DNA from: Acidobacteriota bacterium
GTDB taxonomy: Bacteria > Acidobacteriota > Terriglobia > Acidiferrales > UBA7541
NCBI GenBank assembly: GCA_013289695.1
Contig: JABCZK010000006.1
Location: forward strand, 107,911 to 171,910
Direction: 5' to 3'
DNA length: 64,000 nucleotides
Positions 1,526 through 47,775 of this stretch are shown here, piece after piece. Each line of letters opens with the position of its first letter. The first letter of the stretch is position 1. Both the position numbers and the translations under genes were made by a program. The notes below the pieces were generated by a model that made no database searches, was not told the DNA's origin, and worked only from the letters and a program-made list of their open reading frames with translations.

Positions 1526-2676
1526 TGTCCACAGAGCAGGGCGGGCCATCGAAAAATCCTGCGGATCAATTTCCGAATCACATGCTGCGGGAAATCTACG
1601 AGCAGCCGCTGGCCATTCGCGAAACCATTCGCCAAAATGTAGCGGACGACGTAATTTTTTCGACTTCGCTCCAGCCCATCGAAAAAGCCCTCTTCGCCTT
1701 CAAGAAAATCATCATCGCCGCGAGCGGCTCCAGCCGCAATGCAGGCCTCGCCGGCGAAATCATGATGGAAGATCTAGCAGGCGTTGCTGTGGACGTGGAA
1801 TACGCCAGCGAATATTGTTATCGCTCGACGCATTCAGACACCGATCCGATCGTCGTCGTCATCACCCAGTCCGGTGAAACCGCGGATACCACCGCCGCGC
1901 AACGCGAAGCCCTCAATCGCGGCGCGAAAACCGTCGCCATTTCCAACGTCGCCGATTCCACCATCTCCCGCGAAGCCAGCGCCAACCTGCAAACCTGCGC
2001 CGGCCTGGAGAAGGCCATTCCCGCGACGAAAAGTTTTACCTCGCAACTCACGATGCTTTATCTGCTGGCGCTGTTTCTAGCCCGCCAACGCGGCCGCATG
2101 ACCGCCGAAGTCACCCGCACGCACCTGAATTTCCTGGCCGAACTGCCCCGGCAGATCGCAGAGTTCCTGCCGTCATGGGACGCGCAAGCCTCCGGCTGCG
2201 CCCGCGCCTTTCAGCAAGCCAGCAAGTTCATGTTCCTCGGCCGCGGCGTCCATTACGCCATCGCCCGCGAAGGCGCGCTGAAGCTCAAGGAGATCTCCTA
2301 CGTGCAAGCCGAAGGCCTTCCGGCCGGTGAGCTGCGCCACGGCTCCAATGCTCTGGTAGACGAAAATCTAGTGGTAGTCGTTCTGGCCACGCGCGACGCC
2401 GCCGACCCCGATTCCGTCCTGCGCTACCAAAAAACATTCTCGGTGCTCGAATACGTCAAAAGCCGCGGCGGAAAATCCATCGCCATCGCCTCCGCAGGCG
2501 ATCGCGAACTCGCCGCCGTCGCCGATCGCACCCTGTTCGTCCCTCCGGCCACGGAGCTGCTCCTGCCGATCCTGGAAGTAGTCCCGCTCCAGCTTTTCGC
2601 CTATCACTACGCCGTCCTCAACGGCTGCGACGTGGACCGCCCCAGAAATCTAGTAAAATCCGTGATCACCGAATGA
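1525..2676 (+). CDS. SIS-domain protein, GlmS isomerase-like (no glutaminase domain)
   Basis: Tandem SIS domains: ASGSSRNAGLAGEIMMEDLAGV, TQSGETADTTAAQREA, LGRGVHYAIAREGALKLKEISYVQAEGLPAGELRHG; start overlaps the upstream stop. Confidence 0.88.
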   Translation: MSTEQGGPSKNPADQFPNHMLREIYEQPLAIRETIRQNVADDVIFSTSLQPIEKALFAFKKIIIAASGSSRNAGLAGEIMMEDLAGVAVDVEYASEYCYRSTHSDTDPIVVVITQSGETADTTAAQREALNRGAKTVAISNVADSTISREASANLQTCAGLEKAIPATKSFTSQLTMLYLLALFLARQRGRMTAEVTRTHLNFLAELPRQIAEFLPSWDAQASGCARAFQQASKFMFLGRGVHYAIAREGALKLKEISYVQAEGLPAGELRHGSNALVDENLVVVVLATRDAADPDSVLRYQKTFSVLEYVKSRGGKSIAIASAGDRELAAVADRTLFVPPATELLLPILEVVPLQLFAYHYAVLNGCDVDRPRNLVKSVITE

Positions 2677-2710
2677 AGCTCCGCTCCTTTTCCAGCGGCG
2701 CTTATCAATG

Positions 2711-3003
2711 CTTCGGCGAACCATTGTTCGTAGCCCCGGCGTCCCGCCGGCTCATTGCCTTTGACGTTGGTTGTGAATTTGTGGCGGCCAACTTTAGCTG
2801 GGTGCCTTTGACGTTGCCTTTGACTCCGTTCTTGACGTGGCCCTTGTAGCGGCCGGTCCCGCAAAGCGGGACCGGGCAGCAGTTGCCGTTGGTTTGCCTT
2901 GGACGTCGCTTTTGGCTTTGTCTTCGTAGCGGCGCACTTCAGCGCGCCATCGCTGTCGCGAAACAAAACGATGGCGCTGCGAAAACCGCGGCTACAATAA
3001 ATC
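2711..3003 (-). repeat. R1 modular hairpin/linker intergenic repeat, locus 1 (4 modules)
   Basis: Reverse strand reads as alternating hairpins (GGCGCGCTGAAGTGCGCC, CCGGTCCCGCTTTGCGGGACCGG, CCCAGCTAAAGTTGG, GGCGGGACGCC), each followed by a GCTACRA-like word and AAnTCAAAGGCAAC-like linkers; shared with 37570, 41440 and 45915. Confidence 0.75.
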
Positions 3004-3034
3004 AAACGCACGGAAAAAATTCTCGAAAGGACCC

Positions 3035-4390
3035 ATGGCCACCGAGCCAGCCCAAACCGCCGTAAAACTCCGCCGCGTCCTAACCCTCTGGGACCTGATC
3101 ATCATCGGTATCGTCATCATCCAACCCATCGCCCCCATGGGCATCTACGGCGTAATCAGCAACGACGCCCGCGGCCACGTCGTCACCACCATCCTCATCG
3201 CCATGGTCGCCATGCTCTTCACCGCCATCAGCTACGGAAAAATGGCCCGCGCGTATCCTTCCGCCGGCTCCGCCTACACCTACGTCGGCCAGGAACTCAA
3301 TCCCGCCCTCGGCTACGTCACCGGCTGGGCCATCGTGATGGATTACATCCTGAATCCGCTCATCTGCACTATCATTTGCAGCCAGCTCACCCAGAACATT
3401 CTTCCGTTCCTGCCCTACTGGACGCTCGCCGTGTTCTATGCCGGCGCTTTCACGCTGCTAAATATCCGCGGCGTCAAAACCTCCGCGCGCATCAACGACG
3501 TAATGGCCGCCGGAATGTCCATCGTCGTCGTGATTTTTTTCGCCTTTGTAATTCACTTTCTCTGGAGCATTCACGAATACGGCCAGGGTTTCTTCACGCA
3601 CCCGTTCTACAATCCCGCCACCTTCAGCTTCAAAAATGTTTTCCACGGCACATCCGTCGCAGTCCTCACCTACATAGGCTTCGACGCCATCTCCACCTTC
3701 TCCGAAGAAGTCGAAAATCCCCGCCGCAACATCATGCTCGCGACCGTCCTCGTCTGCCTAATCACCGGCGTGCTAGCCTCCCTCGAGGTTTACGCCGCAC
3801 AACTCGTCTGGCGCGACCAACCGTTTCCGCCGGACAAAATCACCTCCGCGTTCCCGCTCGTCGCCCAGACTGCCGGCGGCTATTTCCTTTTCCAGCTCGT
3901 CAACTTCACCATCCTCATCGCCAACATCGGCTCCGGCCTGGGCTCGCAACTCGGCGCCGCCCGCCTGCTCTACGGCATGGGCCGCAGCAATGGCATCCCC
4001 AAAAAATTCTTCGGCGCGCTCGATCCGAAAAATCACATCCCGCGCAATAATGTCATCCTAGTCGGCGCCATCGCCCTCGCTGGCTCCTTCATCATCACCT
4101 ATGACCAAGGCGCGGACCTCCTGAACTTCGGCGCCCTGCTAGCATTCATGGGCGTTAACGTCGCCGCGCTCGTCCGCTACTACGTGCGCGACAAAAAAAA
4201 GCAAATCCTCAACCTCCTTTCGCCTCTCCTCGGTTTTCTCATCTGCGCATTCATCTGGAGCCACCTCAGCGGGCCGGCCCTCAAGCTAGGAGCCATCTGG
4301 ATGGTACTGGGCATGACCTACGGTGCAATAAAAACTCGCGGTTTTCAGGCCGACCTGGTCAACTTCGACATTCCCTCCGACGAATCCTAA
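3035..4390 (+). CDS. APC superfamily amino acid permease
   Basis: Multiple TM segments; LTLWDLIIIGIVIIQPIAPMGIYGV and YPSAGSAYTYVGQELNPALGYVTGW are typical of APC transporters. Confidence 0.88.
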   Translation: MATEPAQTAVKLRRVLTLWDLIIIGIVIIQPIAPMGIYGVISNDARGHVVTTILIAMVAMLFTAISYGKMARAYPSAGSAYTYVGQELNPALGYVTGWAIVMDYILNPLICTIICSQLTQNILPFLPYWTLAVFYAGAFTLLNIRGVKTSARINDVMAAGMSIVVVIFFAFVIHFLWSIHEYGQGFFTHPFYNPATFSFKNVFHGTSVAVLTYIGFDAISTFSEEVENPRRNIMLATVLVCLITGVLASLEVYAAQLVWRDQPFPPDKITSAFPLVAQTAGGYFLFQLVNFTILIANIGSGLGSQLGAARLLYGMGRSNGIPKKFFGALDPKNHIPRNNVILVGAIALAGSFIITYDQGADLLNFGALLAFMGVNVAALVRYYVRDKKKQILNLLSPLLGFLICAFIWSHLSGPALKLGAIWMVLGMTYGAIKTRGFQADLVNFDIPSDES

Positions 4391-8463: not shown

Positions 8464-8546
8464 GGAGTGCGGCGGCTTGCCGCCGCTTTCGCCACGACGT
8501 CAAGAGCCGGCGCGATCGACCCAGGCGAGGCTTGCCTGGCCCGCCG
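8464..8546 (-). repeat. R2 bipartite palindromic repeat, copy A
   Basis: Reverse strand GGCGGGCCAGGCAAGCCTCGCCTGG...GGCGAAAGCGGCGGCAAGCCGCCGCACTCC; matches 27213 and 39616. Confidence 0.85.
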
Positions 8547-37048: not shown

Positions 37049-37519
37049 ATGGCAAAGGCAACTTTTGCGGCGGGTTGTTTTTGGGGAGTGGAGGACGCGT
37101 TTCGCCAGGTGGCGGGGGTGACTTCGACTACCGTGGGTTACACCGGCGGGAGCGCGAAGAACCCGAACTACAAAGAGGTGTGCACGGGGCGGACTGGGCA
37201 CGCGGAGGCGGTGGAGGTGGAGTTTGATCCTTCGCAAGTTTCTTATCTGGAGTTGCTCGCGGTTTTCTGGAAGAGTCATGACCCGACGACGATGAACCGG
37301 CAGGGGCCGGACGTGGGCACGCAGTACCGCTCGGCGATTTTTTATCATGACGCGGAGCAGGAGGAAGAAGCGCGCGCGTCGAAGGCGGTGCTCGAGAAGG
37401 ATCATGTGTTCAAGAGGCCGATCGTGACGGAGATTGTGCCGGCTGGGGAGTTTAATCGGGCCGAGGAATATCATCAGCAGTATTTTGAGAAAACCGGGAT
37501 TCGGGCTTGCCATACGTAG
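37049..37519 (+). CDS. msrA: Peptide-methionine (S)-S-oxide reductase
   Basis: [58 protein letters not shown]. Confidence 0.96.
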
Positions 37520-37569: not shown

Positions 37570-37715
37570 GGCGCACTGAGTGCGCTGCTACGAAGGGCTA
37601 AGTCAGAGTCAAAGGCGCCCGCCTGAAGGCTGCCGCTCCAAATTCAAAGGCAACTGCAACGGCAAAGTCAAAGCCGCCCATCCCGCAACGCGGGATGGCC
37701 GCTACAACGTCAAAC
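37570..37715 (+). repeat. R1 modular hairpin/linker repeat, locus 2
   Basis: GCGCACTGAGTGCGCTGCTACGAAGGGC...AGTCAAAGGCGCCCGCCTGAAGGC...AAATTCAAAGGCAACTGCAACGGCAAAGTCAAAGCCGCCCATCCCGCAACGCGGGATGGCCGCTACAACGTCAAA. Confidence 0.8.
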
Positions 37716-37801
37716 CCTCTTCACAATTGGACTTTTCCGCAAACTATTATCGCGCGAATCGGCACACCACGAGTGACGTGGCGTATTTGTGCAGCGACGA
37801 A

Positions 37802-38500
37802 CTATTGATTGGGGTTGTACGGACTTTCGCTCAGGTGATACCAGAGCGCGTAGCTGGCGGCGCCGACTGCGCCGAGAACGATCAGGTCGAAGAGCAGGTG
37901 ACGGCGCTTGGGAGCTACTACTTTGTTGTTGCCGCCTACTCCCGCGGGGGCTTGCGGTTCCGCGGCTGGTTCCAGATCCATGGTGACGCGGTAGGATTTC
38001 CCGGCGGGAATTTCGTGCAGGTCGCCATCGTTATCTAAAACCAGCGTGCCGCGATACGCGGAGACGATCACTTCGCGCGGACCGATAATGGTGACCTGAC
38101 CATATCCGGGCTGGCCATTGGCGGCGCGCACAATTCCCTCAGGAATCTCCAGCGCGAGCTGGTCGGTGCCATTGGAGGAAAAGCCCACAGTGCCGCGGGC
38201 GACGGAAGCGTTCACGATGGTGGAATTTGCGGACAGAGTGGCGCTGCTGGAGGCGAGCAGATAGAACTGGCTGCCGCCGACTTTGAGGCGAACCGTGCCG
38301 CCTTCGTCTGTGGCGAGTGTATCGCCGGGGTACACAGTCGTCCCGATTGCGACAGTGGCGGACCCCAAATGGGCCTCTGTGGCTTGTGTAACAAGGCCGA
38401 GGGGTTTTTCATTGGCGGCGAAGCTGGGGACGTTGATAAGGCCGACTGAAAGGATGGCAACTAAGAAAGATTTAACGATGTATCGCACGGGGTATCGCAC
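37802..38500 (-). CDS. FecR-like secreted protein with C-terminal TM, paralog of 44942..45826
   Basis: EKPLGLVTQATEAHLG...VYPGDTLATDEGGTVRLKVGGSQFYLLASSSATL...ARGTVGFSSNGTDQLALEIPEGIVRAANGQPGYGQVTI. Confidence 0.72.
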   Translation of the reverse strand: MRYPVRYIVKSFLVAILSVGLINVPSFAANEKPLGLVTQATEAHLGSATVAIGTTVYPGDTLATDEGGTVRLKVGGSQFYLLASSSATLSANSTIVNASVARGTVGFSSNGTDQLALEIPEGIVRAANGQPGYGQVTIIGPREVIVSAYRGTLVLDNDGDLHEIPAGKSYRVTMDLEPAAEPQAPAGVGGNNKVVAPKRRHLLFDLIVLGAVGAASYALWYHLSESPYNPNQ

Positions 38501-41439: not shown

Positions 41440-41590
41440 AGCCAAAACCACAGGCGAAACCGAGATGCCCGCTTCGTCCCGAAAGACACGGGACGAAGCG
41501 GCGGCTACAGAGTCAACCGCAACGGCAACCGAGGCGGCGGGACGCCGGCGCTACCAAAGCCAAAGTCAGAAGCAAATTCAACAAAATCGA
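41440..41590 (+). repeat. R1 modular hairpin/linker repeat, locus 3
   Basis: GCTTCGTCCCGAAAGACACGGGACGAAGCGGCGGCTACAGAGTCAACCGCAACGGCAACCGAGGCGGCGGGACGCCGGCGCTACCAAAGCCAAAGTCAG. Confidence 0.75.
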
Positions 41591-45826: not shown

Positions 45827-45914
45827 TTCAGTGAGTTTCGCCCTCGGCACGATCGAATAGCGCAGCTTCAGGCATTCCTAGCGGTGGTCTTCCGACCGCC
45901 AGCGGTTGTTGCCG

Positions 45915-46065
45915 AGACAACGATGGCGCGCTGAAGCGCGCCGTTACGACGGCCAGTTGGACGGCGAATTCAAAGTCAAATACGCCCGCCTGAAAAGCAA
46001 GCGGCCGATACAAATTCAAAGGCAACGGCGCCCAGCTAAAGCTGGCCGATACAAAGTCAAAAGCT
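45915..46065 (+). repeat. R1 modular hairpin/linker repeat, locus 4
   Basis: GATGGCGCGCTGAAGCGCGCCGTTACGACGG...AATTCAAAGTCAAATACGCCCGCCTGAAAAGCAAGCGGCCGATACAAATTCAAAGGCAACGGCGCCCAGCTAAAGCTGGCCGATACAAAGTCAAA. Confidence 0.8.
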
Positions 46066-46107
46066 TGGTCTGCTGTTTGTTCGATGGCTTCACGACAGCC
46101 GAGGCAT

Positions 46108-47775
46108 TCAGGATTTTTTCCGGCGTTTTGCGCGCGTGGCTTTGCGCTTGGCCGGGGATTTTTTCTTCTTCGTTGAGGCGGCCGCGCTGCCCAACGCGGC
46201 TAGCAATGCCGCGCCGTCAGGCGTCCCCAATCCCGTGCAGGCGTCCCATCCTGGTCCCGCGGAGTACGCGCCGTTGCTGCCCGAAGTGATGTCGTGCAGC
46301 GTGGATTCGACGTTGCCCGTGTAGAGCAGCGGATTCAGGTAGCCCACATTTTTTCCGAGCGACTGGTTGATGCGCGCAAGCAGTCCGGCCCACAACGGCG
46401 CGACCGCGCTCGTGCCGCCGATTACCGTTTGCTGCCCATCAACAAGAACGTTGTAACCGGATTCGGGATCGGCGTCGCCGGCTACGTCGGGCACGCCGCG
46501 GCCGACGAAACCGTTCGGAGCTTTTGGGACGTTCGCGCTCAGTTGATAACTCGGCAGGGCGAAAACTTCGCTGACGCCGCCACCGGTGGCGCCTTCGCCC
46601 GAAGACAGTTCGTTCCAGACTTGTTCGCTGGAGATGGTGGTGCCGGAGAGCGTGAGTTTTGTGCCGCCGCAGGCGAGAACGAAGGGACTCGACGCGGGAA
46701 AATCTACCGTGGGCGTGCCGCTGGATACGCCGTCGGAGGAGCCGTCGTCACCGGAAGCTACAAGGATTGTGACGCCGATGGTGGAGGCGTCTTCACATGC
46801 GGAATTAAAAGCGTTGAGCGCCTGCTGCGTCCAGGAACTTTCCGGACCGCCCCAGCTGATGGAAACGACGGCGGGTTGGAGTTTGGTGTCGTGCACGGCG
46901 GTGGTGAGCGCATCGAGAAAGCCCTGATCCGTATTCGGAGTGAAGTACATGGCGATTTTCGCGGAGGGCGCGACGGCTCCGGCGACTTCGATGTCGAGTT
47001 CAACTTCGCCGTCAGCGCCGTTCGGGTCGCCAGTGGGCGAATTTGTTCCGCCATCCACGGAGACGGCGGTGACGGTGGGCGCGGCGATGCCGAGATTTTT
47101 GAAGTATGTGGCGAGATCGGTCGCGCGATAGCCGCCGGATAATTCCAGGATGCCGATGGTTTGTCCGCTGCCTGTGGTACCTGCGGGGAAATCGTAGGCT
47201 TGCGCGACTTGTGGAACGTTGAAGGAAACGCTCGAAGCTTGGGCGCGCACGACGGGATTCTGCAATTGTTTGCGAATGCGAAAATGCGGCTTCGCTTGCG
47301 GGCGGTTGTCGAGGCCGAACACGCCTTCGATGATGCCGCTGAGCGCGGCGGGAATCTGGATCGTGCCGCTGCGCATACGGCAAGTGCCCGTGGGATGTTG
47401 GTAGCTATTCAGCTCGACGCCGAAGGCGCGGCTGAACCCGGCGACGGAGCCGCTGAGAAGGACGGAGCGGCGGGGGCGGCTGACTTCCACGACTTTCAAG
47501 CCATTCTGCGTCGCAAAGGCGCGAATTTTTTTGATGTCCGCCGGACGCGCGCCGTGGCGCGAGGCGAATTGCGCGCGGGAGAGATGGCTGCGTTGCGCGG
47601 GCGGAAGTTTGCCGATTTTTTCTACGTCGGGAAATTGTTTGGGTGAAGAGCCGCGGCGGAGAAATACGGTTACCTGGATTTGTTCTTTGGGGTCGGATGG
47701 GCCGATTTTACGGGAGCCGGGTAAGAGGGTGCGTTCGCTTCCGGGCAGGTCAATGCGTTTTTCAATTTTTGCCAT
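46108..47775 (-). CDS. S53 (sedolisin/kumamolisin-like) serine-carboxyl peptidase
   Basis: Pro-domain (SHLSRAQFASRHGARPADIKKIRAFA), SGDDGSSDGVSSGTPTVDFPASSPFVLACGGT, GGTSAVAPLWAGLLARIN; Lys/Arg-rich tail. Confidence 0.92.
   Translation of the reverse strand: MAKIEKRIDLPGSERTLLPGSRKIGPSDPKEQIQVTVFLRRGSSPKQFPDVEKIGKLPPAQRSHLSRAQFASRHGARPADIKKIRAFATQNGLKVVEVSRPRRSVLLSGSVAGFSRAFGVELNSYQHPTGTCRMRSGTIQIPAALSGIIEGVFGLDNRPQAKPHFRIRKQLQNPVVRAQASSVSFNVPQVAQAYDFPAGTTGSGQTIGILELSGGYRATDLATYFKNLGIAAPTVTAVSVDGGTNSPTGDPNGADGEVELDIEVAGAVAPSAKIAMYFTPNTDQGFLDALTTAVHDTKLQPAVVSISWGGPESSWTQQALNAFNSACEDASTIGVTILVASGDDGSSDGVSSGTPTVDFPASSPFVLACGGTKLTLSGTTISSEQVWNELSSGEGATGGGVSEVFALPSYQLSANVPKAPNGFVGRGVPDVAGDADPESGYNVLVDGQQTVIGGTSAVAPLWAGLLARINQSLGKNVGYLNPLLYTGNVESTLHDITSGSNGAYSAGPGWDACTGLGTPDGAALLAALGSAAASTKKKKSPAKRKATRAKRRKKS

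Follow-up and report, generated by a model that had tools for sequence, protein, structure and literature searches.

Four loci in a stretch of 64,000 nucleotides (the window) from an uncultured acidobacterium of the class Terriglobia are very probably, with a probability of about 87%, clusters of GTAG-tagged REP elements of the RAYT-mobilised kind. REPs are non-autonomous, single-strand DNA hairpins moved by the HUH/tyrosine transposase RAYT, alias TnpA-REP. The kind of element is thus already known; what is new is its arrangement in directional mosaics of mixed classes behind a REPIN head, with a phased CAA spacer. The window corresponds to positions 107911-171910 of contig C6 in a host genome assembly of 4.5 Mb (64 contigs, 87% complete), and the relatives that share the repeats likewise belong to Acidobacteriota, class Terriglobia.

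A first, sequence-only reading had described short hairpins alternating with a fixed phrase. This alternation is real at all four loci (2711-3003 on the reverse strand; 37570-37715, 41440-41590, and 45915-46065 on the forward strand), where the arm pairs that it quoted and the foot GCTACAA or GATACAA were found in the orientations that it gave. At each locus the arms are mutually unrelated yet self-complementary, and module starts within a locus lie about 46-74 bp apart (roughly 45-70 bp in the sequence-only reading). Its account of the linkers holds in part: the AA(n)TCAAAGGCAACGGCA-like linkers do occur, but they are made of degenerate hexamers in which CAA returns every 6 bases rather than of a single fixed phrase. 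A simple tandem repeat, already rejected in that reading, is ruled out by the absence of a TRF array at the loci and by the differences between modules. The foot is GCTAC, with GTAG on the opposite strand, where the standard foot is GTAGC followed by the hairpin. The parts of the four loci are as follows.

2677-3034, no strand: whole insertion at locus 1, 358 bp, between a SIS-domain gene (1525-2676) and an amino-acid permease gene (3035-4390)
2727-2753, reverse: locus 1 class C module, GAGCCGGCGGGACGCCGGGGCTACGAA, from consensus search
2754-2778, reverse: locus 1 CAA-rich linker, A to C
2779-2803, reverse: locus 1 class A module, ACCCAGCTAAAGTTGGCCGCCACAA, from consensus search
2804-2843, reverse: locus 1 hexamer linker, contains TCAAAGGCAACGTCAAAG
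2844-2877, reverse: locus 1 class D module, GCCCGGTCCCGCTTTGCGGGACCGGCCGCTACAA, from consensus search
2924-2951, reverse: locus 1 class E module, REPIN right half, GATGGCGCGCTGAAGTGCGCCGCTACGA, from consensus search
2970-2995, reverse: locus 1 left half of the E REPIN, degenerate, starts GTAGCC; inverted, 44 bp offset, 4 mismatches
37570-37593, forward: locus 2 class E module, diverged, GGCGCACTGAGTGCGCTGCTACGA
37617-37641, forward: locus 2 class A/B module, GCCCGCCTGAAGGCTGCCGCTCCAA, from consensus search
37642-37675, forward: locus 2 linker with five phased hexamers (TCAAAG, GCAACT, GCAACG, GCAAAG, TCAAAG)
37676-37706, forward: locus 2 class D-like module, GCCCATCCCGCAACGCGGGATGGCCGCTACA
41467-41510, forward: locus 3 class D-like module with a longer hairpin, GCCCGCTTCGTCCCG...CGGGACGAAGCGGCGGCTACAG
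41531-41557, forward: locus 3 class C module, GAGGCGGCGGGACGCCGGCGCTACCAA, from consensus search
45878-45903, forward: locus 4 left half of the E REPIN, CTAGCGGTGGTCTTCCGACCGCCAGC; inverted, 44 bp offset, 4 mismatches
45922-45949, forward: locus 4 class E module, REPIN right half, from consensus search
45984-46013, forward: locus 4 class B module, GCCCGCCTGAAAAGCAAGCGGCCGATACAA, from consensus search
46014-46029, forward: locus 4 hexamer linker, ATTCAAAGGCAACGGC
46030-46054, forward: locus 4 class A module, GCCCAGCTAAAGCTGGCCGATACAA, from consensus search

Open reading frames crossing the arrays (2607-3011, 37580-38038, and 45906-46289) are taken as putative chance open frames in GC-rich DNA. 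In array order, the first module is of class E at loci 1, 2, and 4 (three of the four). This E module is one side, the right half, of an inverted REPIN pair. The left half, located upstream, is clear at loci 1 and 4 and, judged by eye, degenerate at locus 2.

Five hairpin classes recur in the host.

Class A: GCCCAGCTnAAGCTGGCCGCTACAA
Class B: GCCCGCCTGAAAAGCAGGCGGCCGCTACAA
Class C: GAGCCGGCGGGACGCCGGCGCTACGAA
Class D, plus variants: GCCCGGTCCCGC-loop-GCGGGACCGGCCGCTACAA
Class E: GATGGCGCACTGAAGTGCGCCGCTACGA

Further copies, whose absence from the host genome would have spoken against a repeat family, are numerous. A census of an 861-kb host sample, which used looser cut-offs and might include a few chance matches, yielded 58 modules (E 16, C 13, A 11, D 10, B 8); its controls on reversed sequence gave 0-1 match per class at up to 6 mismatches, those of classes A and C being higher when looser. 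At 5 mismatches, consensus searches of the same 861 kb returned 9 copies of A, 8 of B, 10 of C, 3 of D1, 5 of D2, and 10 of E, and none in reversed sequence. In the whole host genome, classes E and C have 41 and 56 copies, respectively, with at most 2 mismatches, class A has 12 exact copies, and the foot GGCCGCTACAA occurs 69 times versus 5 in reversed sequence. The exact class A module was detected neither in the contigs of named genomes nor in 60 relatives. Other families of hairpin repeats were also seen (GATGAATCGCCCTGCAGGGCGATTCATC, GGAGTGCGGCGGCTTGCCGCCGCTTT, GTAGGGGCGCTGCTTGCTGCGCCCC, and GTAGGTCGTGGCTTCAGC), for example at L007:5780-5830 and L016:15420-15470 of the host sample and at 8469, 39677, and 57814 in the window.

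Covariation of the arms, a check proposed in the sequence-only reading, was scored at two stem pairs that the class E search had left unconstrained. In the host, these pairs are Watson-Crick in 39 and 34 of 41 copies (shuffled means 20 and 16, maxima 31 and 26), and among distinct copies in relatives, in 31 of 34 at either pair (shuffled means 11 and 12). Compensatory changes hence exceed those in shuffles in both sets. A perfect stem of at least 5 bp stands directly before 24 of 34 distinct feet, compared with 2.6% of shuffles, and the arm sequences preceding this one constant foot are of 9 different types. GTAG precedes stems of at least 8 bp about 2.5 times as frequently as most permuted tags do; among the latter, TAGG likewise scores high, probably via GTAGG. 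Classes C and E show GTAG, 1 nt, and a stem of about 7 bp, which fits the 0-2 nt allowed for a GTAG tag, and classes A, B, and D show GTAGCGG and then the stem, that is, 3 nt, or a G-C pair plus a mismatch, slightly beyond this rule.

High copy number, intergenic location, and subfamilies with compensatory stem changes, features that define the GTAG REP superfamily, were all found. The host elements share with this superfamily (PMC3733652) short GC-rich hairpins, GTAG at one foot, a link to RAYT, and several stem/loop subfamilies per genome. They differ from it in their acidobacterial host, in the mixing of classes in one orientation, and in the hexamer-phased linker. Identity to a catalogued family had been named as an argument against the sequence-only reading; no family matches letter for letter, but the superfamily itself is catalogued (PMC3733652).

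REPIN pairs aside, neighboring modules have the same orientation in 19 of 19 pairs from arrays of at least two modules, and adjacent modules in host arrays belong to different classes. The arrays resemble the BIMEs of E. coli as intergenic mosaics of REPs and conserved inter-REP motifs; however, BIMEs alternate REP orientation, whereas all non-REPIN neighbors in the host are co-oriented. Class E qualifies as a REPIN because its inverted halves, which carry different stems, sit at a fixed 44-bp offset. Opposite-strand E matches lie at exactly this distance on contigs C2, C4, C12, C14, C20, and C25. For 7 of the 16 E modules, including those at loci 1 and 4 of the window, the left half fits best at an offset of 44 bp. 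Such an inverted doublet with fixed spacing, as in the REPINs of Bertels and Rainey (2011, PMC3116915), was found in the host for class E only, and class C has an inverted partner in several relatives. Unlike REPINs (PMC3116915), classes A, B, and D occur in the host mainly as single-orientation modules behind the REPIN, without inverted pairs of their own, and the arrays mix classes.

Class E heads all seven arrays that contain it. This order would also be expected if the arrays belonged to one larger element of MITE type, fixed at both ends by a 5' REPIN and a constant 3' terminus (TCAAAACC...TTTTCCGCAA), and the motif TTTT(T/C)CGCAA indeed follows several arrays (16 matches overall versus 2 in reversed sequence). 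We nevertheless regard such an element as very improbable: only a minority of the 16 matches adjoin arrays, and E or the motif is missing from many arrays. Being enriched but not consistently beside arrays, the motif was rejected as a common 3' array end.

The hexamer linker is in phase with the foot. CAA follows the foot at +6, +12, +18, and +24 in 24, 20, 13, and 7 of the 58 modules, with about 0.9 expected at each position, and also lies ahead of modules at -7, -13, and -19. On the GTAG strand, the linker reads (TTGNNN)n and ends in TTGTAG, so that its phase matches that of the foot. The combination of a foot and two phased hexamers was counted 15 times in the host versus 7 times in total across 100 relatives, and the phased linker is therefore mainly a host feature. 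At least 2 of these 7 matches (L226 and L228) resemble coding sequence and were set aside. Bare hexamer runs in relatives, considered as a counterpart of the linker, proved to be mostly other repeats or close to control level. In the congener G018 (L227), CAACGGCAA linkers join a mosaic of similar kind, and another congener, G017, has 52 feet and the same class D hairpin as the host, with other linkers and sometimes in same-orientation tandem. A long run of (GCAACGGCAACT)n, a unit resembling the host linker, was noticed at G016:C21:20783-20969.

The modules lie mainly between genes: 5 of 58 are inside predicted open reading frames, although these frames, which are rough calls, cover about 81% of bases. 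Locus 1 represents a clean insertion. In five of six congeners (75-78% protein identity), the SIS-domain and permease genes overlap by ATGA, and in the host, 358 bp of array stand in place of this overlap. We infer from the five species that the overlap is the ancestral state, and the comparison therefore shows that the whole of locus 1 was gained in the host lineage. The array might affect mRNA, for instance by putative attenuation between the once-overlapping pair. Downstream of msrA (37049-37519), considered as a second empty site, G004 has no array, a weak indication because its next gene is not matched to that of the host. The sixth congener, G011 (L275), carries an unrelated insert at the SIS/permease junction, which might be an insertion hot spot.

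The location of the modules has a second possible explanation, namely that they are 3'-end RNA structures (attenuators, terminators, or mRNA-stabilizing hairpins) kept by selection rather than mobile DNA. Most modules lie within 300 bp of the end of an open reading frame, 11 of 31 classified arrays are in convergent regions, compared with 131 of 638 pairs of reading frames, and REP elements elsewhere were reported to act in this manner (PMC3733652). Yet no T-tract follows the hairpins at the four loci, 8 arrays occupy divergent intergenic regions, near-identical hairpins are found again at unrelated genes in the host, and locus 1 is absent in five of six congeners. A known RNA family was rejected, as no Rfam covariance model scored above its gathering threshold in the window. 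We therefore consider selected RNA structures unlikely as the origin of the arrays. The sequence-only reading had left three options, and no positive evidence emerged for a structured RNA array or for a nucleoid or recombination element. Its remaining option, a mobilized REP/MITE-like family, is supported by the number of copies, the covarying stems, the GTAG tag, the position between genes, the empty site at locus 1, and the RAYT flanks in relatives.

A RAYT-type transposase, also suggested as a check, was found next to such hairpins in relatives; the host has one distant member only. In 13 related RAYTs (P0001 type), GTAG plus hairpin occurs 43 times in the flanks, at 13 of 13 loci, versus 0-12 times for permuted tags, the top count of 12 belonging to TAGG, which overlaps GTAGG. 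In a mixed set of Y1 transposases, GTAG hairpins were counted 15 times in the flanks, versus 1.35 in shuffled and about 12 in reversed controls; this signal, not clearly above the reversed control, was resolved by restriction to the P0001 type. The RAYT of the congener locus L300 is flanked by co-oriented GCCCGCCTGAAGGCGGCCGCTAC-GAAGGCAACGGC modules, which equal the host class B hairpin and have the same linker style. The family member G032 RAYT (L083), which exceeds the NCBIfam REP_Tyr_transpos cut-off and has TnpA-REP 4er8 as its best PDB match (E 5.5e-12), shows an inverted hairpin pair upstream and about 7 class A-like hairpins (GCCCACCTGAAGGTGGCCGCTACAA) in one orientation with a 46-bp period downstream. 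With its about 7 near-identical units, the linker ACCGGCATTCGARGTCGARGATG, and an exact period, this stretch (G032:C61; L083 1300-2320) might serve as a compact model for such arrays. A CRISPR-like repeat, GTCGCCCCGCAGAGTAACGCGGGGCGCGGATTGAAAC, was seen in two copies downstream near the RAYT gene of L309 (G060:C78).

The single Y1 transposase of the host, on C15, is classified by NCBIfam as REP-associated tyrosine transposase, has 26% identity to the hairpin-flanked P0001/L300 type, and is accompanied by a single degenerate class C-like hairpin downstream. The P0001/L300 type itself is missing in the host assembly (87% complete), a gap that may reflect assembly incompleteness or loss. Relatives, congeners included, have REPtron-like RAYT genes flanked by GTAG hairpins, two of them with host-like arrays, whereas the host assembly yielded no REPtron of this kind. 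REP-bearing genomes without a REPtron were reported elsewhere (PMC3733652). The missing host RAYT speaks against the main reading, as does copy number, which does not follow RAYT presence: G004 has 22 class C copies and no Y1 transposase match.

The host without a matching RAYT raises the possibility that the linker series and the arrays grew by replication slippage or recombination at hairpins, with REPs as passive seeds and the mosaic built without a transposase. Consistent with this, the linker is a degenerate hexamer microsatellite phased with the foot, and G032 (46 bp) and G017 (about 50 bp) have arrays of exact period whose linkers are different. Slippage alone, however, would not yield neighbors of different classes as in the host, and RAYT genes in relatives are flanked by such arrays. 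On balance, growth by slippage seems possible but somewhat unlikely.

RAYT cleaves REP DNA in vitro. Under our preferred reading of RAYT-mobilized REPs, the elements would spread by RAYT excision and strand transfer of single-stranded DNA, and arrays would grow as further copies repeatedly insert into existing REP and linker sequences or as such sequences recombine, the arrays being tolerated mainly between genes. Each module reads TTGTAGC plus hairpin on the GTAG strand, and modules of classes A, B, C, and D stand behind the REPIN right half, co-oriented and joined by (TTGNNN)n in phase with TTGTAG; such mosaics would arise from insertion beside existing REPs or from linker recombination. In other species, TnpA-REP proteins cut REP DNA at the dinucleotides CT or CA, with GTAG serving as a guide in at least one case (PMC8266576). 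A bolder proposal, which we think distinctly improbable, is that the hexamer linker is itself a transposition product: each (TTGNNN) step would mark one cycle in which RAYT cleaves a repeated target and transfers a strand there, linker length would record the number of processing events, and growth would proceed one way from the REPIN head. If true, this would be a new route for array building by single-strand transposases.

Di Nocera (2013, PMC3733652) described GTAG repeats in Proteobacteria, Cyanobacteria, Chloroflexi, and PVC bacteria, and for Acidobacteria only TIR-flanked transposases. A 2018 HuH survey assigned some class 3 genes, flanked by CnGA-foot structures, to Acidobacteria, and tandem REP arrays were described in P. 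fluorescens (PMC3116915). In the open-access literature, we found neither a closer report on REPINs or RAYTs in Acidobacteria nor a description of a directional mixed-class array with a phased linker. Our findings extend GTAG REPs and REPINs to Acidobacteriota, indicate to annotators that the intergenic DNA of the arrays is repeat-derived, and bear on how REP mosaics form, given the fixed polarity and phased linker in the host and the matching RAYT hairpins in relatives. With mixed-class polar arrays, RAYTs in relatives, and at least one clean empty site, polarity, target choice, and linker origin therefore become testable.

Class C hairpins were also encountered in other settings. The JABDFR MAG (G026) holds 89 of them, many in inverted pairs 146 bp apart, which suggests a MITE-like element of about 170 bp. 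The 24-base class C hairpin is further present in other phyla, at L132, L136, L137, L144, and L202 (Hydrogenophilales), L139 (Gallionellaceae), and L163 (recorded as Caldithrix abyssi), in many cases close to an inverted partner, pointing to either convergence or transfer.
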